Below are positions 2,231-10,567 of a stretch of 20,169 nt of DNA, in pieces. The notes under the pieces are model-generated. The model was not told the DNA's origin and searched no databases. It worked only from the letters and a program-made list of their open reading frames with translations. Source of the stretch: a virus; the IMG/VR virus record IMGVR_UViG_3300042305_001093, positions 1-20,169 of that record. One strand, 5' to 3'. Position 1 is the stretch's first letter. Every line of letters begins with the position of its first letter. Position numbers and translations under genes: made by a program.

Positions 2231-2254
2231 GGGGGCTTGCGCCCCCTATTTTTA
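2231..2254. terminator. Intrinsic-terminator-like hairpin after hsp20
   Basis: A perfect 6-bp GC stem, GGGGGC paired with GCCCCC, encloses a 4-nt loop. On the minus-strand RNA the loop is GCAA, a GNRA tetraloop. It starts 5 nt after the Hsp20 stop codon. The U-rich tail is better on the plus strand (TATTTTTA) than on the minus strand (TTCTAATTT), so it may terminate poorly in the gene direction, act bidirectionally, or serve as a processing or mRNA-stability hairpin between hsp20 and the downstream gene. Confidence 0.6.
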
Positions 2255-2743
2255 TTCTGCTAGAAGTTGTTTCTCTTTAGCAGGTTTGCTTGCAGTAGTT
2301 TCCTTGACTGCAATTTTCTTTGGCTTTTTATGTTCTGGAATGAACATGTCAAGCCAGATGCGAAGCATGCCGTTAATCATCTCGGCATCTTTAACTTCCA
2401 AGTTGTCGTTCAGTAAGAACGTTCTTGTGAAGTTACGATTTGCAATGCCTTTGTAAATCCAATGATCAACTTCTGCGTCATCTTTTGATGTTCCCTTGAC
2501 AACTAGTTTGCCGTCAACAAGTTCGATTTCAATTTCAGACTTGCTAAATCCAGCAACAGCAAGTTCGATAATGTATCGATCTTCAGCAACTTTTTTAATG
2601 TTATATGGGGGATAGTTTGGAATACCTTTGGTCAAATCGTCGTGCATTTTTGCTAGACGGTTGTATTGATCATCGAAACCGACATAGAGTTTATCGAAAT
2701 CTTTGAACAAGTCGCGGCCAAATACATCTTTGAGATATGTCAT
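2252..2743 (-). CDS. hsp20: Small heat-shock protein, Hsp20/alpha-crystallin family
   Basis: A 163-residue ATP-independent holdase chaperone. The alpha-crystallin domain spans roughly residues 45-140 and starts PPYNIKKVAEDRYIIELAVAG, followed by the strand KLVVKG, the RTF segment and the hallmark loop/strand NGMLRIWL. A C-terminal IAV tripeptide (KKIAVKE) matches the I-x-I/V oligomerisation motif. The tail is Lys/Ala-rich. A strong Shine-Dalgarno AAGGAG lies upstream of the ATG. Hsp20 is a familiar accessory gene of T4-like and cyanophages, where it is thought to protect phage proteins during assembly or stress; that role here is inferred. It sits 22 nt downstream of the rubredoxin gene and probably shares its transcript. 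Confidence 0.95.
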   Translation of the reverse strand: MTYLKDVFGRDLFKDFDKLYVGFDDQYNRLAKMHDDLTKGIPNYPPYNIKKVAEDRYIIELAVAGFSKSEIEIELVDGKLVVKGTSKDDAEVDHWIYKGIANRNFTRTFLLNDNLEVKDAEMINGMLRIWLDMFIPEHKKPKKIAVKETTASKPAKEKQLLAE

Positions 2744-2765
2744 TTTAGTCTCCTTTTAAGCAAGA

Positions 2766-2909
2766 TTAAACTTTGACGTATTCGTCTTTGTGGCATCCGC
2801 AGTCTGGACAGAGCCAAAACTGAGGAAGGTCTTTCCACTTTTTACCTTCTTTTTCTTCATCGTACTCATGACCACAAACATCACACACATATACTTCATA
2901 TGATTCCAT
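2766..2909 (-). CDS. Rubredoxin-like small iron protein
   Basis: A 47-residue protein. It contains the two rubredoxin knuckles, YVCDVCGHEYD and LCPDCGCHKDEY, giving the CxxCG...CPxCG ligand set for one tetra-cysteinyl iron. The aromatic core residues (Tyr, Trp in KWKDLPQFW) are also at the usual places. Length matches classical rubredoxins of about 50 residues. The ATG at 2909 is set by AGGAG 6-7 nt upstream. Rubredoxins pass single electrons in the cytoplasm; the partner here cannot be read. It lies between the hairpin-rich segment at 2932-3032 and hsp20, in a small group of stress and redox genes. Confidence 0.92.
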   Translation of the reverse strand: MESYEVYVCDVCGHEYDEEKEGKKWKDLPQFWLCPDCGCHKDEYVKV

Positions 2910-2931
2910 GATTTCTCCTTTTCAGCGAGAT

Positions 2932-2957
2932 AAAAATTGTCACCCCGAAGGCGTGAC
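2932..2957 (-). terminator. Intrinsic terminator with cUUCGg loop upstream of the rubredoxin gene
   Basis: On the minus strand the hairpin is GTCAC-(G)-CC-TTCG-GG-GTGAC: seven pairs with one bulged G and a C(UUCG)G tetraloop. It is followed after AA by TTTTT. This is a convincing Rho-independent terminator or attenuator. It ends transcripts from the winged-helix gene, or a short RNA started at the late-type promoter near 3020, before they reach the rubredoxin ribosome-binding site. Confidence 0.75.
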
Positions 2958-3012
2958 AGGCAGTTTTACCTAGGGTGCCCAGCCTAGTCCCATCCCGAAT
3001 GAGATGGTCTAG
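2932..3012 (-). ncRNA. Candidate hairpin-rich small RNA or leader
   Basis: Between the winged-helix gene and rubredoxin, a minus-strand transcript starting just after the TATAAATA at 3017-3024 would fold into three successive hairpins. These are CCATCTC/GGGATGG (2990-3007, one G-U pair), CTAGG/CCTAG (2970-2987) and the UUCG terminator (2939-2957) with its U-run. No convincing open reading frame occupies the segment. The layout fits an independent RNA of about 80 nt, or a structured leader/attenuator for rubredoxin-hsp20. This is inference from sequence alone. Confidence 0.35.
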
Positions 3013-3032
3013 TATGTATTTATACTAGACCA
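3005..3032. repeat. Perfect 11-bp inverted repeat around a late-promoter-like box
   Basis: TGGTCTAGTAT (3005-3015) is exactly repeated in inverted orientation as ATACTAGACCA (3022-3032), with a 6-nt spacer. The minus-strand TATAAATA overlaps the spacer and the inner part of one arm. It could be a protein-binding operator over the promoter or an RNA hairpin. No T-run follows it, so it is not a simple terminator. Confidence 0.7.
3017..3024 (-). promoter_or_regulatory. T4-type late promoter TATAAATA
   Basis: The minus strand reads TATAAATA, an exact match to the T4 late-promoter minus-10 element recognised by the gp55/gp33/gp45 late system. It is in an intergenic position, about 110 nt upstream of the rubredoxin start and in the right orientation. 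A start near 3010 would give a transcript running into the hairpins and terminator at 2932-3007. Use depends on this phage keeping T4-style late transcription, which the gp45 and DsbA-like genes suggest. Confidence 0.55.
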
Positions 3033-3044
3033 GGTGATGCTAGA

Positions 3045-3272
3045 TCACGATTGCCATGCCATCCGACGGGAAATGAAGTATACGGTGCGGCCGCTCTTGT
3101 TTTGTTCGGTGCGAATGCGATAACCTTCTTGACGAAGTTCGCTCATGCGGGCACGGAGATTACCGATGCCGAAGAGTGCGCGGGCTTGAGGTGCGGTGAG
3201 GCCGCGATTCTTGCCGCGAAGGAAGGTGACGAGGGTTTGGTTCTGGGTCATGCTGGTTTTAACGAATGCCAT
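3045..3272 (-). CDS. Winged helix-turn-helix protein (PF14090-like)
   Basis: A 75-residue basic DNA-binding protein, probably a regulator. The sequence QNQTLVTFLRGKNRGLTAPQ leads into ALFGIGNLRARMSELRQEGY (recognition helix region) and a wing RIRTEQNKSGRTVYFI. This is the pattern of the small phage/prophage helix-turn-helix family PF14090. I start it at the ATG at 3272 (MAFVKTS) because GGAG lies 8 nt upstream; an in-frame TTG at 3290 precedes that site and is less likely. Its stop codon overlaps a small GTGAT/ATCAC hairpin (3034-3048). A 6-bp palindrome within its own promoter region (3334-3350) suggests autoregulation, which is inference. Confidence 0.85.
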   Translation of the reverse strand: MAFVKTSMTQNQTLVTFLRGKNRGLTAPQARALFGIGNLRARMSELRQEGYRIRTEQNKSGRTVYFISRRMAWQS

Positions 3273-3853: not shown

Positions 3854-5032
3854 CTATAGTCCGTATCGACTTCTAGAAGAAATATAGTTTTGATAAATTT
3901 CGGATGCGGTCAATGCCCTATTATAAATTCGAACGTCTGATAATCGACCTGGAAACGCACTATCGCCTGAAGTATTTTGTGCACCAATCGCAATATCCAT
4001 ATTTCCAGAAGATGTTATTGATTTCCCCGCATCATTAGCAGAAGCGTTTAATACTCCGTTGAAATAAGTTTTCAGTCCAACATTATCATAAACTCCTGTG
4101 ATATGATGCCATACATTAGTGGATAAAGTTTGACCACCATCTATTGCGTAAACCCCAGACACACCACCATCATATTGCCAAAATATTCTACTGCTAGGAT
4201 TAATTAGTAAACATATTCCATTTTCTACATTCACTTTATTAGATATAATACCCGCCCAATAATTCGGCGCGGAAGTTCTATAAACCCAAGCTGAAAAAGT
4301 ACAAGAATTTCCGATCAAAAAGTTCATTCCATTTGTGATGTATCCAAAATCATTTGTTCCGTCAAGAACTAATGCTCCACTATTGTTTGAATTATATGAT
4401 AAACCATTTGTTAAAATTAAATGATTATTTCTTCCACTTAAATCCAACATTGAGGGAAAAGTTCCTCTTTCCATTTTCAAGTTTGTATAGTATCGATATC
4501 CTGTGTATGCACTACCACCATATCCAACGAACCAAGCAAAATCATTATTGTAATCACTCGGTGTGGTGATTAGATCATAACAATACTTCCAAGTAATGCC
4601 GTTCACAACAACCGTTTTTAAAACTGTTCCTATACCAATTCCAAGTGCAACGTGTGCGCCAGAACTACTATGTGCCCTACAGTGAAACATTCTGCTTCCG
4701 TCTGCGCAACTATAGTCACTAGATTCTGCATACCAACCACTTAAACAGTATGCTGTACTTGCAACTAATTGTGATGTAAGGTTGATTTGATATTCGGTAT
4801 AAGCAACAGTGCCTGTCTGTCTTAGTACAAACGCACTGTCTCCAGGATTAGGAAACGCAATTACTTCATTCGTTGGATTACTACCACTCTCGTAAGGCAT
4901 ACCAGAGCCATCACCAAACGCACTATTGGTATAGAAGTTTGATGAAAAGACTGTTTGGTTTTTGATTGTTCCTGCATCCATGCAGAAAACTAAACCATTA
5001 GCGACTCCGTTTGGTCCTGATGAAGAACTCAT
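3854..5032 (-). CDS. Two-domain LamG-type adhesin/tail protein (last of the array)
   Basis: A 392-residue protein whose C-terminal half is a LamG/concanavalin-like jelly roll: LDLSGRNNHLILTNG, LVLDGTNDFGYI, FSAWVYRT, HHITGVYDN and DVRIYNRALTASEIYQNYIS. The N-terminal half has an additional beta-sandwich (TEYQINLTSQLVASTAYCLS, then NLKMERGTFPS) resembling carbohydrate-binding domains of the CBM_4_9 kind. It ends SRSRYGL. I start at the ATG at 5032 (MSSSSGPNG); it overlaps the preceding stop as ATGA, whereas the longer frame begins inside the upstream gene. There is no signal peptide, as expected for a virion protein. The exact role (fibre tip, baseplate or capsid decoration) is not visible. 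Confidence 0.85.
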   Translation of the reverse strand: MSSSSGPNGVANGLVFCMDAGTIKNQTVFSSNFYTNSAFGDGSGMPYESGSNPTNEVIAFPNPGDSAFVLRQTGTVAYTEYQINLTSQLVASTAYCLSGWYAESSDYSCADGSRMFHCRAHSSSGAHVALGIGIGTVLKTVVVNGITWKYCYDLITTPSDYNNDFAWFVGYGGSAYTGYRYYTNLKMERGTFPSMLDLSGRNNHLILTNGLSYNSNNSGALVLDGTNDFGYITNGMNFLIGNSCTFSAWVYRTSAPNYWAGIISNKVNVENGICLLINPSSRIFWQYDGGVSGVYAIDGGQTLSTNVWHHITGVYDNVGLKTYFNGVLNASANDAGKSITSSGNMDIAIGAQNTSGDSAFPGRLSDVRIYNRALTASEIYQNYISSRSRYGL

Positions 5033-5766
5033 AGTCCGTATCTTCCTTTCCAAGAAATCCAATTCGACGATACTTCAGTTTGAGTAAATGGAAAATTGTA
5101 GACTTTTATTGTTGAGCGTCTACCAAAAAATTTCCATCCGTATAGTGTTCCGAACAAGCATCCGCCACCATCATAAACACTAGTTCCTGAAGTATTATTT
5201 GTATTTCCTGTTCCTATTAAATTTCCATTTATATAAAACGAAAAAGTGTTTGCTGATCTATTCCAAACCATTGTTCTAAGTCGCCATGTGTTAAATGTAT
5301 TATATGGGCTAGGGACAGTAAAGATAATTTCGTCTTCATACGATCCACCAGAACTGCTTGACATGCCCATTTTAAAAGAGCCTACACCTATACCATGTTG
5401 CCAATCAAATCCTGTCGCTCCACCACCATAGGCACTATCACTTACAACAGACCCGCCGTCGGCCTCTGGATAATTCGTTGAATATGTATATACAGATTCC
5501 TCTATTGTCCATCCTCCAGTAGTTGTACTGAAAGTATTATTAATAGTTGTAGAATTTGATGTTGAGATATAAAAAAAATCAGAAGTATTAGAAGAATTTT
5601 GAAGCCATGTATTCGACTTCTCTCCCAGATTAATTGTTCCATGATTGCCATTTCCGCTCAGATCATACCATGTGGTTCCACTTCCTGGATAGCTTTTAAC
5701 ATTAGCGGCATCATACGACAAAATCAGTCCCGACAACACCGTTTTTGCTCCATGAAACAAGCTCAT
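5029..5766 (-). CDS. Single-domain LamG-type adhesin/tail protein
   Basis: A 245-residue paralogue. The N-terminal module GLILSYDAANVKSYPGSGTT continues WYDLSGNGNHGTI. A LamG-like fold follows (GGWTIEESVYTY, TWRLRTMVWNR, FSFYINGNLIG, TIKVYNFPFTQTEVSSN) and it ends WKGRYGL. I start at the ATG at 5766 (MSLFHGAK), which forms an ATGA overlap with the upstream stop. A longer in-frame extension only copies the antisense of nothing known and enters the upstream gene, so I rejected it. The start also follows the GGAAGGTATGG purine stretch encoded by the upstream gene's RGRYG tail. Confidence 0.85.
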   Translation of the reverse strand: MSLFHGAKTVLSGLILSYDAANVKSYPGSGTTWYDLSGNGNHGTINLGEKSNTWLQNSSNTSDFFYISTSNSTTINNTFSTTTGGWTIEESVYTYSTNYPEADGGSVVSDSAYGGGATGFDWQHGIGVGSFKMGMSSSSGGSYEDEIIFTVPSPYNTFNTWRLRTMVWNRSANTFSFYINGNLIGTGNTNNTSGTSVYDGGGCLFGTLYGWKFFGRRSTIKVYNFPFTQTEVSSNWISWKGRYGL

Positions 5767-6479
5767 ATACCATACCTTCCGCGTAGGGCTTGAAAATTTT
5801 GCGCGATCTCTGCCGCGCTTAATGCTTTTTTGTATGCCTTGATTACCGATAGTTTTCCAGTATATATGCCGCAGCAAGGACTGCGCACAATTCCAGGTGC
5901 AGACGCATTCTGTGCTGTCTGTGATGCAGGTAAGCCTAGGTAATCCTGATATACTCCATCCAAGTACAATAAAACTCTTGGAGAGCCAGCCACAGAGCCT
6001 GTTCTATTGAACACTGCAACTACCTGATGCCATTTGTTGTTATCAAAAGAACTGGTATATGCAGCAGCGCCCTCTGTGTAATCAGGACCACATAGAGCAT
6101 ATATTCCATTCGTGCCAACACCAAATCTGAATCCATCACCACCGCCGGCGTTACTTATCAGTCCAACTTGACCAGAAGAAGAGTTAACATTTTTAACCCA
6201 AACTTCAAACGTGTAATCTCCTGTGCTATTGGTAATAGCACCACTAAGACTAAAACCTAGAGAAGAATCTGCCGAATAACTGCCTGATGCTGTCGCAAAG
6301 TTAAAACATCTAGTAACATCAGTTTCAAAAGGTACAGAGCCAAACATAGAAGCAGTAATACCACTCGAACTTAAATCGGTCCATGTGGTTCCGCTGCCAG
6401 GATAACTTTTTGTGTTACCTGCATCCAAACACAAGGATAAATTCTCGGTGACCGATCTAGGACTGTAAAAAATTGCCAT
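5763..6479 (-). CDS. Single-domain LamG-type adhesin/tail protein
   Basis: A 238-residue paralogue. It begins MAIFYSPRSVTENLSLCLDA and then has the shared TKSYPGSGTTWTDLSS segment. The LamG jelly roll shows YTFEVWVKN, KWHQVVAVFNR, VLLYLDGVYQ and LSVIKAYKKALSAAEIAQNF, and ends ALRGRYGI. The start is only 1 nt after the TAA of the preceding 85-residue gene, so translation is probably coupled. Around 6381-6440 its DNA is closely similar to 9303-9360 of another family member, so the genes appear to share recently exchanged or duplicated segments. Confidence 0.87.
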   Translation of the reverse strand: MAIFYSPRSVTENLSLCLDAGNTKSYPGSGTTWTDLSSSGITASMFGSVPFETDVTRCFNFATASGSYSADSSLGFSLSGAITNSTGDYTFEVWVKNVNSSSGQVGLISNAGGGDGFRFGVGTNGIYALCGPDYTEGAAAYTSSFDNNKWHQVVAVFNRTGSVAGSPRVLLYLDGVYQDYLGLPASQTAQNASAPGIVRSPCCGIYTGKLSVIKAYKKALSAAEIAQNFQALRGRYGI

Positions 6480-6480
6480 A

Positions 6481-6738
6481 TTACATCTCAGTAGGTCTCA
6501 TCGGCAGCGTCCACTCTTCATTGCTGAGAATAGCTAAGATTTCTTCGTGCGTATATGGGCCCTCTGCGCCTGTGAGTTCTAGTGTAGAAGCAGGTCTTTC
6601 ACCTTCCCACTTCACAAATGTCTTTGTGCCATCTACACTTTTTCTTACTGTGTCGGCAGATGATTCTAACACTTCATTGAAGTTTACTTTGTCTAACTCT
6701 GAGACTGAAAAGATTAAATAATTTCTATCGTTGTACAT
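6481..6738 (-). CDS. Small conserved phage protein of 85 residues (function unknown)
   Basis: Begins MYNDRNYLIFSVSELDKVNF and ends EEWTLPMRPTEM. I do not recognise a domain with a known activity; I have an impression of similar small proteins next to phage tail genes. No Cys pairs or membrane segments are seen. The ATG at 6738 is chosen because AGGAGA lies just upstream; an earlier in-frame ATG at 6762 precedes that site. It is placed between two LamG genes and could be a chaperone, adaptor or small virion component of that set. That idea rests on position alone. Confidence 0.8.
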   Translation of the reverse strand: MYNDRNYLIFSVSELDKVNFNEVLESSADTVRKSVDGTKTFVKWEGERPASTLELTGAEGPYTHEEILAILSNEEWTLPMRPTEM

Positions 6739-6751
6739 TATGTTCTCCTGA

Positions 6752-7489
6752 TTAAATAACATTATATCTATTTCTATGCGCTTTATACTGTACGTTCACC
6801 TGTGAAGCAGTATGAGCAACATCATTATAAACTTGCATTGAACCCATGTCTCCGGAATAATATCCCCACCCCCAAAACACTCCAACACTGCCCATATTTC
6901 CGCCGCCTAATACTCTAGGTGAAGATACTGTCAAAACATAATCTTGTACACCGTTGACATACATGGTCATCGTTGTTGCACTTGATCTTATAAATGCAAG
7001 ATGCTGCCACGTTCCTGTGTTAACAGACGCACCAGTGCTTGTATAGTAGTTCCACTGTCCATCGTATTGAAGATAATATAGTTTTCCACCATTTAATCCG
7101 TACCCGACGTTTACTGGTCCACCGCTCCAATGAGAGAAAAATCCCATCTGAGCAGATGATGTTGTTCGTATCCAAAAGTATACGCTGCATACTGTTGACA
7201 GTAATACTGGCGTGCTTGTATTACCAGTGACACTATCTTGCATAGAAAAATAATCGTTTGTCCCATCAAACGACATATAGCCTAGATGGTCTGATCTAAA
7301 TATTGGGCCGTTGTTCAGTGTGCTATTTACATTTCCTTGTAAATCATATGCAGTAGAAGAGCCAGAGGTGAATGATAGTGGTCGAGCAAAATCTATAGCA
7401 TATGTTAAATTGGTGGGTATTAAACCTACTAGAGAATTTTGTCTCGACTGATTCGCCCAATTTGTAGAAACTCCGTGATTTAGTCCCAT
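6752..7489 (-). CDS. Divergent LamG-type adhesin/tail protein
   Basis: A 245-residue family member with a diverged N-terminus ([20 protein letters not shown]; no SYPGSG motif). Its LamG core is clear: [49 protein letters not shown] and [20 protein letters not shown]. It ends HRNRYNVI rather than RGRYG, and the next gene has its own AGGAGA site. This fits the idea that the RGRYG tail matters where no separate ribosome site exists. Its own start follows CGGAGTATAG, which straddles the upstream gene's end, by 2 nt after the stop. Confidence 0.86.
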
Positions 7490-7491
7490 TT

Positions 7492-8670
7492 CTATACTCC
7501 GTACCTTCCACGTAATGCTTGAAAGTTTTGTATCACTTGTTGTGTGGATAACGCGAGATTATAAAATTTTACGTTACTGATTGAACCAGACCAATATGCC
7601 CCGCCGCCAGTCCAATCATAAATTGATCCGCCTATTTTTACACTGTTGCTCTTATTGACGTTTGTAGATGCATTAGTCCATGTATTAGTAGAAATTAGTA
7701 CGCCATTCGCATATAGATATAATTCATTAGCGGTATGTGACCAAACAACTGTAATATTTTTCCATACGTTAGCTTGAAAAACAGAAGACACTTCTGGAGT
7801 AGGCCCGTTGCCATGACCTCCTCCAGTATCCCAATACACAAAGCCTAAATTACTGCCGTTTTGTCTTACTTGCCATTCCCAATCTAACCCTTTGCCTATT
7901 ATGCCTCTAGTTTGGGAAACAGTTGATGGCTTACACCAAAAATCTATAGACGCACTATTTGTATTGTTCCAACTTAAATCTAAACCTGTATCTATGTAAT
8001 CGTCTGTAGCATCAAAACTAAAAGTGCCATCCGAAGCATACGATAAATTTTGTGCGGTGATAGTATTATTATTTGTTAAATCTAAAATAGCCTGTGTGTT
8101 TGATCTTGTACCATCTACAAACGGTGAATAAATTGAACCTGCTTCCATTTGAGGCTCTTTCAATTCAAAGATATGATTGTACGTCGTGTAATCATCACCG
8201 TCCTGCATAAACCATAAAACTCTTGTTGTATTAGCAGGCGTTGTTAAAGTAATAAAAGCTGTTTGCCAATCCTCTTTATCAGTAATACCTAATTGTGCTG
8301 TAGTAGCAAATGACATCGTGCTTATGTAGCTGACGCCATTATAAGCTTGAATTTGAAAACGTAAGGTGGGCGCGCCTGCTATTTTTCTATATTTTACAGA
8401 AAATGTATATGTTGTACTTGCTGATACACCTTCAATATATGTATTTTGACGAGTATTTTGATTTATATCAGAGATTGTACAATAATAAGTGCTATTAATA
8501 GTACGTGTTCCAATATTACCTTGACCTGAACCATCAACTGACCATGCTGCCCACGAAGGATTTACTAAATTTGTGGTAGGTTTACCTTTCCAAGACTTCT
8601 CGGTGTTATTCGCATCATAACAGAAAACCAGACCACTAGTAGAAATTTCTGGACCTGAGAATGCACTCAT
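7492..8670 (-). CDS. Two-domain CBM-like plus LamG adhesin/tail protein
   Basis: A 392-residue protein. Residues about 30-185 form a carbohydrate-binding-like beta-sandwich ([62 protein letters not shown]). The ending QMEAGSxxSPF is typical of CBM_4_9-like modules. A LamG domain follows ([62 protein letters not shown]) and then ALRGRYGV. The N-terminal module is [19 protein letters not shown]. The start overlaps the upstream stop as ATGA. Probable role: glycan recognition by a virion structure, inferred from the folds. Confidence 0.87.
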
Positions 8671-9401
8671 ATGCTATATCTTCCACGATGAGCTTGAAAA
8701 TTTTGTTGTATATCGGTGTTCGAAAATTTAAATCCATATATTTTTACCACACTAATTCTTCCACTGTACCATCCAGATGATCCTCCTCGACTACCGAGAT
8801 AAAGTGTATAGTTACCAAAGCTTCCTGAGCTAGTCGAAGTGCTTGTAGGATATCCAGGACCAGTAACAAAATTTACTAAATTACCATCGCAGTATGTCAG
8901 TCTTCCTGTGCTATCGGATACTTTAGAAAAAATATTAACATGTGTATTCCAAACAAATCCAGCCGTTTGTATTGCTGGCGGAGAATGTAAATAATTTCTT
9001 ACTGCAACACCATTATGATTAGTGTGATGCATGCCTGAAGAGAAACTATTTCCGTCGCTATTAACAGATAACCCCCAAGCACCGCTGTTTGAATTCCAAT
9101 CCGCACTATGCTCAATCAGCATCGATGATGGGCCTCCAGCTAACCTAAACCATATTTCGCATACTATGTAATCATATGAACTAAGATTTATAGTATTTGT
9201 AGAAGCAGCAAAATCATTGAAGCCATCGAATACAATTGCACCGTCGAGAAATCCGATACCATTGTAAAGTGTAAAATGATTACCGTTTCCACTTATATCA
9301 AACCAAGTGCTTCCACTGCCAGGGTAACTTTTTGTGTTGGCTGCATCTAAACACAGCACCAATGCGTTTGTAACGATTCTAGGACTATGATTAAGTGCCA
9401 T
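8667..9401 (-). CDS. Single-domain LamG-type adhesin/tail protein
   Basis: A 244-residue paralogue. It has MALNHSPRIVTNALVLCLDA, then TKSYPGSGSTWFDISGNGNH and a LamG core (AIVFDGFNDFAAS, VCEIWFRLAGG, VNIFSKVSDSTGRLTYCDGN, ISVVKIYGFKFSNTDIQQNF), ending AHRGRYSI. The ATG starts 2 nt after the stop of the preceding family member, with the purine stretch GGAAGATACGG of that gene's tail as the only visible ribosome site. Its stop overlaps the next ATG. Confidence 0.87.
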   Translation of the reverse strand: MALNHSPRIVTNALVLCLDAANTKSYPGSGSTWFDISGNGNHFTLYNGIGFLDGAIVFDGFNDFAASTNTINLSSYDYIVCEIWFRLAGGPSSMLIEHSADWNSNSGAWGLSVNSDGNSFSSGMHHTNHNGVAVRNYLHSPPAIQTAGFVWNTHVNIFSKVSDSTGRLTYCDGNLVNFVTGPGYPTSTSTSSGSFGNYTLYLGSRGGSSGWYSGRISVVKIYGFKFSNTDIQQNFQAHRGRYSI

Positions 9402-9403
9402 TT

Positions 9404-10567
9404 TTATAATCCGTATCTTCCGCGAAGAGCTTGATAATTTTGTCGAATTTCTGCCGCTGACAAAGGACGATTGTATAATCTAACAGAAGAAATATTTGAA
9501 CTACTAGGATATCCGCCGGCATTATAGTCGCCTATGTATGTTGTTGCAGTATATGTTGTTGGCTGATTAGTCATTACCTGCGTAGCCTCTTGAGAGCCAT
9601 TGACATAAATCGTCATATTTGCCCCATCGAAAGTACCAACAACATGATACCAAACACCAGTTGTAAATACTGTAGTCGAATATATCACACTATATGATGA
9701 TGCCGTTGTTCCTATAACTTCCCACCTCATTTGATTAGTGCTTCCTGGCATCCAAAAATTTACATAAGACGATGAATTAAATCCGAAAAAGCCTTGATTT
9801 CGATTTATGGCATTCAGTTTTATCCAGGACTCTAACGTTCCGCCTGATGAGAAATTAAATTCTCTTGAAGTAATAACGATTCTATCGTCGATTCCATCAA
9901 ATAAGATACTTCCTCTGTTAGAAGAATTATATGACGGACCGTTGGTTAATGTTCCATCATTTCCGCGAAGGGTTAAATCATTCCATGCGTTTCCGTTTTG
10001 ATTATAAAAAGGACTAAAGTTCGTAGCGGCACTTCCTCTTTCTAGTTGCAGTCCGTCAACCCACATTGTTACACCTGTATTATAATTATCTATGCGCACC
10101 TGAACAAATGCAGTAGTTCCTTGCGTCATCGTATACGACCCCGACACTCTGGTCCAGCCAGTAGTTACGCTATAAAATGTTTGTCCAAGTGCTGTGTAAT
10201 TGCCAGAAGAGTTTGCTTCAAATATCATCAAAGAAGCAGTGTGTGACGTTGCGCCTTTTACCCAAAAACTAAATGTCCAAGTTTGTCCTATCGCTGCCGG
10301 AGCAAGATTCCATGTAGATGAATTATAAGTGCCTGTATACGCACTAGAACCACTAGTAACTATTTTTAGTGGAACACCTCCGACAGGACTATCGGTAACA
10401 GAACTATCTCTAGATAGAGTCATTTGATACCCACCACCAGGACCGAACCAAGTATGTGAATCCAAAGGTTGAGGAAATACATTCAGACTGTAGCTTTTCA
10501 TATTAGCGGAATCAAGGGAAAAAATTACTCCGCTGGTTGAAACTCTAGGACTGTAACTTATACCCAT
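9404..10567 (-). CDS. Two-domain CBM-like plus LamG adhesin/tail protein
   Basis: A 387-residue protein, first LamG gene of the array in transcription order. N-terminal motif: SPRVSTSGVIFSLDSANMKSY. Residues about 60-190 form a CBM_4_9-like sandwich (WTFSFWVKGATSHTASLMIF, VSGSYTMTQGTTAFVQVRID, MWVDGLQLERGSAATNFSPF). The LamG domain follows (ILFDGIDDRIVI, LESWIKLNAINRN, WYHVVGTFDGANMTIYVNGS, ISSVRLYNRPLSAAEIRQNY) and then ALRGRYGL. The ATG overlaps the upstream stop as TGATG and GGAG lies upstream. It is the most complete representative of the long architecture. Confidence 0.88.
   Translation of the reverse strand: MGISYSPRVSTSGVIFSLDSANMKSYSLNVFPQPLDSHTWFGPGGGYQMTLSRDSSVTDSPVGGVPLKIVTSGSSAYTGTYNSSTWNLAPAAIGQTWTFSFWVKGATSHTASLMIFEANSSGNYTALGQTFYSVTTGWTRVSGSYTMTQGTTAFVQVRIDNYNTGVTMWVDGLQLERGSAATNFSPFYNQNGNAWNDLTLRGNDGTLTNGPSYNSSNRGSILFDGIDDRIVITSREFNFSSGGTLESWIKLNAINRNQGFFGFNSSSYVNFWMPGSTNQMRWEVIGTTASSYSVIYSTTVFTTGVWYHVVGTFDGANMTIYVNGSQEATQVMTNQPTTYTATTYIGDYNAGGYPSSSNISSVRLYNRPLSAAEIRQNYQALRGRYGL

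Follow-up and report, generated by a model that had tools for sequence, protein, structure and literature searches.

The window, by which we mean the whole stretch of 20,169 bases analysed here, is the record of an uncultivated virus carrying T4-like genes on the minus strand. Among these genes, Pfam analysis identified the gp45 sliding clamp; from the open reading frames alone, we take others to be clamp-loader and regA genes. The element under study lies between a winged-helix gene and a rubredoxin gene, the latter being followed by hsp20, which specifies a small heat-shock protein (Table 1). The structures described below fall in a gene-free interval, as had been claimed for positions 2932-3032; these limits proved too short, with the conserved unit reaching to the Shine-Dalgarno (SD) sequence of rubredoxin at 2914-2930. 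No tRNA or tmRNA was found in the window. In two relatives dense tRNA arrays were seen 3' of hsp20, with 20 Rfam tRNA matches in L085 and seven in L052. Elsewhere on the minus strand of the window (3854-10567) there is a run of paralogous-looking genes, several with RGRYG-like motifs at the end. The one gene of this run that was tested has a Laminin_G_3 (concanavalin-like) domain, and the run is perhaps an adhesin array.

Table 1. Features of the leader region and its flanking genes (window coordinates)
Feature	Position	Strand	Remarks	Basis
Winged-helix gene	3045-3272		ends just upstream of leader	Pfam HTH_39
Perfect 11-bp inverted repeat	3005-3032 (arms 3005-3015 / 3022-3032)		6-nt spacer; surrounds promoter	private to lineage
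T4-type late promoter octamer, TATAAATA	3017-3024	-	only exact copy in window	conserved place in relatives
HP1, 5'-proximal hairpin	2990-3007	-	CCAUCUC-AUUC-GGGAUGG; conserved core GGGAUGGGA	fold; leaders in relatives
H-type pseudoknot	2958-2987	-		shuffle test; covariation in relatives
Pseudoknot S1	2983-2987 / 2970-2974	-	CUAGG / CCUAG	
Pseudoknot S2	2976-2980 / 2958-2962	-	GGGCA / UGCCU	
Pseudoknot loop 3	2963-2969	-	GUAAAAC	
HP2, bulged-G hairpin	2939-2957	-	GUCAC-g-CC-UUCG-GG-GUGAC; terminator of the original prediction	first hairpin of ROSE-like element
SD-masking hairpin, at rubredoxin	2914-2930	-	UCUC-g-CU-GAAA-AGGAGA; ROSE U(U/C)GCU motif	fold; motif conservation
Rubredoxin gene	2770-2909	-	first behind leader	Pfam PF00301, E 1.7e-8
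Second SD element, at hsp20	2750-2764	-	CUUGCU-UAAA-AGGAG	without HP2
hsp20 (small heat-shock protein)	2252-2743	-		Pfam PF00011, E 6.5e-18

Late promoter and gene order

Relatives were collected by searching viral contigs with the winged-helix protein (42 loci) and with Hsp20 (80 loci). The original prediction of an exact late promoter octamer on the minus strand was borne out. Since 1.08 exact copies of TATAAATA are expected by chance at the composition of the window, the octamer alone proves nothing; what counts is its conservation at the same place in the relatives, which backs the late promoter label. The order late promoter, HP1, pseudoknot, HP2, SD element and gene is kept in the relatives, the more distant of which differ in sequence. 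The 5' strand of HP1 usually starts 5-7 nt after TATAAATA in these phages. T4 late transcripts start at about this distance, and HP1 would accordingly form the 5' terminus of the RNA. A few leaders (L054, L085 and L091) have no octamer directly upstream, so that HP1 and the pseudoknot are not strictly tied to it.

Folding of the leader and its pseudoknot

Folding of the likely transcript (2904-3010) gave four elements, namely HP1, a CUAGG/CCUAG stem, the bulged-G hairpin and an SD hairpin. The last contains the SD sequence of rubredoxin and was absent from the three hairpins originally listed; these three do correspond to structures, the middle one being a pseudoknot rather than a simple hairpin. 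The minimum free energy z-score was tried as proof of structure and dropped: it was -3.4 for 2930-3038, which includes the palindrome, versus -1.2 for 2904-3010, once the untranscribed palindrome arm is omitted. With a z-score of just -1.2 for the likely transcript, the case for structure rests on covariation, and the search for compensatory changes in related phages, proposed together with the original prediction, revealed covarying pairs in both the pseudoknot and HP2.

The leaders were gathered using a pattern of octamer plus HP1 core, a pattern that itself selected for the core; independently of it, GGGATGGG was found upstream of 60 of 72 hsp20 loci. The HP1 loop was also considered as a CsrA/Rsm site (GGGAU before a stem G), a reading kept as a lead only, the hairpin being kept in L011 and L013 with GAAAU within its loop. 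A second context of the HP1 core was seen, in which ATAAATA is followed by CGGGATGGGAAG and a strong intrinsic terminator (L201, L202, L221, L252, L257, L269, L280, L301 and others). The gene preceding this arrangement is capsid-like (C-terminus EIAVQNLTFQ) or of HNH type, and a late RNA of about 60 nt could result.

In the window, the loop closed by the CUAGG stem is paired with bases further downstream (GGGCA/UGCCU), and the same arrangement is found in relatives with other letters: CCGAGG/CCUCGG, GUGUGGGG/CCCCACAC, GUGCG/CGCAC and GUAGU/ACUAC. Across 30 distinct phage leaders, 96% of the S1 cells and 99% of the S2 cells were paired, values that are upper bounds since the pairs were counted in a hand-made register chosen for pairing. 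When the 3' strands were re-dealt 2000 times, the means were 64% and 49% and the maxima 75% and 63%, respectively. The hand-made register was used because MAFFT multiple alignment put the S2 register wrong between subclasses. A dinucleotide-shuffle test, in which the shuffled sequences were given the same free pseudoknot search, covered 21 intervals; 16 were matched in score by at most one of 200 shuffles, the window by five, and two other intervals by three and 14. Under the strict search no pseudoknot was found in two of the 21 intervals (L216 and L314), S1 being broken in L216.

Loop 3 is mostly A-rich across the leaders, as is typical of classical H-type pseudoknots. In the window-class pseudoknot, hardly any letter of S2 is conserved, and the loop length varies. 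Between HP1 and the bulged hairpin, at least 125 distinct leaders, counted among the listed matches to the pattern of octamer plus HP1 core, contain one window-class pseudoknot, a larger knotted module, or chains of these; among these listed matches, the same gene is preceded by different cassettes in different leaders. The larger module (L010, L057, L097, L207, L249 and L271) has the recurring loop letters CCTTAGG, AACGATA and GTAAGC, and its loop pairing seems to covary by eye (CTG/CAG, CCG/CGG). No Rfam match was found for it.

The Shine-Dalgarno element and its relation to ROSE

HP2 is followed by CUCgCU-GAAA-AGGAG, a stretch that folds back onto the SD sequence of rubredoxin. A hairpin with a single bulged G, represented by 103 distinct stem pairs, lies upstream of 208 of 232 distinct CU[CU]GCU..GGAG sites, a set partly picked by a pattern that includes the hairpin. 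Among 39 dereplicated sites unselected for HP2, the hairpin is present in 30, versus 51 of 7800 shuffles (0.65%), and the pairs 3 to 5 from the bulge are of several Watson-Crick types. The second SD element behind rubredoxin accounts for five of the nine sites lacking HP2, and a diverged hairpin is present at some of the others, e.g. in phage Melnitz.

In the window the SD motif precedes a start twice, at rubredoxin and hsp20 only. An SD element lies within 450 nt upstream of hsp20 at every one of the 72 loci whose upstream sequence was long enough; it is located directly at hsp20 in 26 and before the preceding gene in the rest. Each of four long phage records (83, 119, 143 and 164 kb) contains the strict SD pattern once, at hsp20 or its operon. 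Six near-identical contigs share the leader of the window, three of which (L006-L008) are without rubredoxin, the leader abutting hsp20. Flanked by two SD element copies (window 2744-2930), rubredoxin has the look of a cassette, and in L006-L008 the join falls inside the shared AGGAGA. A short gene of about 69 amino acids (MLMYANMAIDAIQ...), with no Pfam or PHROG match, is often situated between leader and hsp20 (L009, L016-L022, L057 and others). Nearest-neighbour folding, which describes the non-canonical pairs of ROSE elements poorly, predicted the SD hairpin to be stable over a wide range (probability of being unpaired 0.04 at 37°C and 0.19 at 60°C). The same type of model predicts an open SD in Melnitz, and the SDs of other window genes are also predicted to be paired.

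Of 16 named phage records with hsp20, 13 carry the strict SD element, most together with the bulged-G hairpin: Melnitz, S-SSM5, S-PM2, P-RSM3, P-SSM7, C48C1, ACG-2014f, Phosso, S-PRM1, ACG-2014a, S-RIM2, P-RSM6 and S-RIM32. In Pseudomonas phage Cassandra a near version, CUUGCG..AAGGAG, follows a similar hairpin, and no SD element was found in S-TIM5 and the Vibrio phage. Both cyanophages and a jumbo phage, the 469-kb Sinorhizobium phage Phosso, have the bulged-G hairpin with CUCGCU-SD, so the element extends beyond T4-like cyanophages. The part comprising HP1 and the pseudoknot was not seen in the leaders of the 16 named phages. BLAST searches of the named phages with a pseudoknot-class leader and with the winged-helix protein both came back empty, and this form was thus not found in cultured phages. 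BLASTN comparison of the region with named phages gave matches to four Methylophilales phages, confined to hsp20. When 84,980 genomes of bacteria and archaea were scanned with a DNA pattern for the phage-type HP2 and SD element, a narrow one that diverged bacterial versions could escape, a single match was obtained; its contig also bears T4-like gp44, gp62, regA and hsp20-like genes.

ROSE elements are defined by pairing of U(U/C)GCU with the SD, and the short two-hairpin elements with this motif at Pseudomonas ibpA are proven thermometers (PMC3669281). The phage leader shares with these a stable first hairpin (HP2), a short 3'-most hairpin in which the U(U/C)GCU motif is imperfectly paired with the SD (UCUC-g-CU/AGGAGA in the predicted fold), and a small heat-shock gene: the window leader serves rubredoxin and hsp20, the second SD element lies at hsp20 and, in relatives, the element can lie directly at hsp20. 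In the consensus of Rfam family ROSE_3 (RF02523), CC in the first hairpin is likewise preceded by a one-base gap, and ACUCGCU..AGGAG recurs. No other Rfam family matches the 3' half of the relatives' leaders as well as ROSE_3, with which it aligns end to end; the scores were 39.9 bits (E 4.9e-6) for the record of L114, 34.1 bits for the cultured phage Melnitz, 30 bits for the record of L118, 23.4 bits (E 0.0066) for L010 and 13 bits for the window, all below the gathering score of 43 that marks membership, as in every phage tested. At gathering thresholds Rfam yielded nothing in the window and tRNAs only in 15 relatives. Unlike ROSE_3, the phage leader belongs to a T4-like phage, has a late promoter and rubredoxin as first gene, and is extended 5' by HP1 and the pseudoknot; its thermosensing is putative. 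By analogy with the Pseudomonas elements, the 3' half probably works like a short ROSE element, although we do not file it as a member of ROSE_3.

Proposed function and competing readings

Comparison of the relatives shows that the late octamer, the pseudoknot, the bulged hairpin and the strand pairing with the SD are conserved, as is the link to hsp20. From these we propose that the region is probably a late 5' leader serving heat-shock genes, which combines an exchangeable pseudoknot with a ROSE-like switch acting on translation. It would head the rubredoxin-hsp20 mRNA that a T4-like phage makes late in infection. Transcription would start a few bases past TATAAATA, the RNA beginning near HP1 and continuing into the H-type pseudoknot, and the polymerase would read through HP2. 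The 3' half would then form the stable bulged-G hairpin followed by the short hairpin in which U(U/C)GCU is imperfectly paired with the SD. By analogy with bacterial ROSE, we infer that this hairpin holds translation low until it is opened by warming or another trigger. The most likely role of HP1 and the pseudoknot is to keep the 5' end of the late mRNA stable and ordered, which may protect the message from decay and help the switch to fold correctly; this is the least certain step. The HP1/pseudoknot parts appear to be swapped as cassettes between related phages.

It is conceivable, if unlikely, that a phage protein binds the leader and represses translation, temperature being uninvolved, as with gp32 on the gene 32 pseudoknot of T4. 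The gene 32 leaders of T4, T2 and RB69 use a pseudoknot for autoregulation, which a review of T4 describes as perhaps the only viral example in translational autoregulation (PMC3014915). Our leader resembles them in having an H-type pseudoknot with an A-rich loop within the 5' leader of a T4-like mRNA. It differs in the gene that follows, which is rubredoxin-hsp20 and not gene 32, in that structured HP2 rather than an unstructured A+U-rich stretch separates pseudoknot from SD, and in having no known protein partner. The pseudoknot sequence is freely exchangeable among relatives, so that a protein would have to recognize shape, and marine relatives keep HP2 and the SD element with the pseudoknot absent.

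We give still less weight to a riboswitch, with the SD hairpin as expression platform and a small molecule as the ligand of the pseudoknot modules. Compact pseudoknots with A-rich loops look like several riboswitch folds, and the recurring loop letters of the larger module would fit such a reading. The scarcity of conserved letters in S2 of the window class, its variable loop length, the swapping of modules before the same gene and the lack of an Rfam match argue against it. The structured manA RNA motif (RF01745), known from marine metagenomes and cyanophages, has been reported upstream of ibpA chaperones among other genes (PMC2864571), and our leader is like it in preceding small heat-shock chaperone genes in phages. 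The manA covariance model matched none of 20 leader-carrying phage records at E up to 1, a weak test in which no positive control matched either, and manA was not among the matches in Rfam scans of the window and other leaders.

One alternative in the original prediction was a free small RNA of about 80 nt, expressed late and with its end set by intrinsic termination at the UUCG hairpin, a reading we consider very improbable. In the window the UUCG loop is indeed followed by ATTTTTA with its tract of five Ts, and a terminator scan includes this hairpin, ranked last of 25. Across the HP2 versions the combination of G+C-rich hairpin and T tract does not hold: only 24 of the 103 distinct ones have a run of at least five Ts within the next 12 bases. 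What HP2 does keep is its bulged G and its short spacing to the SD; it is coupled to the anti-SD hairpin and aligns with ROSE_3. There is no other exact late octamer between HP2 and rubredoxin or hsp20, and HP2 is unlikely to be a terminator because transcription must pass it to reach these genes. The region is thus probably the start of a late phage mRNA, judged from its sequence, rather than a small RNA with a terminator, and the second alternative originally offered, a structured leader controlling rubredoxin and hsp20, was on the right track.

The perfect 11-bp inverted repeat at the promoter was found as described; a longer imperfect pair containing it (2992-3015/3022-3045) tops the nearby inverted repeats of the window. 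It is common only to the near-identical contigs L003-L008 and, being absent from L009 and other relatives, is a private feature of this lineage. That it is an operator for a dimer, such as the winged-helix protein whose gene ends just upstream, hardly seems credible in spite of its perfect arms, since the closest diverged relative, L009 (winged-helix protein 88% identical), is without the palindrome yet keeps the gene, octamer, HP1, pseudoknot, bulged hairpin and SD element.

The preferred reading, a late leader with a ROSE-like switch, bears on hsp20, a core gene of marine T4-like cyanophages (PMC3037559). Among the open-access papers listed, we found no description of translational control of hsp20 in these phages and nothing joining cyanophages with RNA thermometers; a paper on marine viral small heat-shock proteins refers to neither a thermometer nor a promoter nor an untranslated region. 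The layout, which precedes the small heat-shock gene of many aquatic phages, is apparently new to the literature. We tentatively suggest that the 5' part may represent a new kind of phage regulatory RNA, in which a freely exchangeable pseudoknot, or a chain of several, stands as a cassette behind a 5'-terminal GGGAUGGGA hairpin, fold rather than sequence is selected, and the whole is joined to a ROSE-like switch that several phage groups carry on small heat-shock genes. If the ROSE-like element is conserved, lytic phages would sense temperature or another RNA-melting cue during infection. In the pseudoknot cassettes, nature offers dozens of ways to build the same fold at the same site, from which the effect of a structured 5' end on a phage mRNA could be learned.
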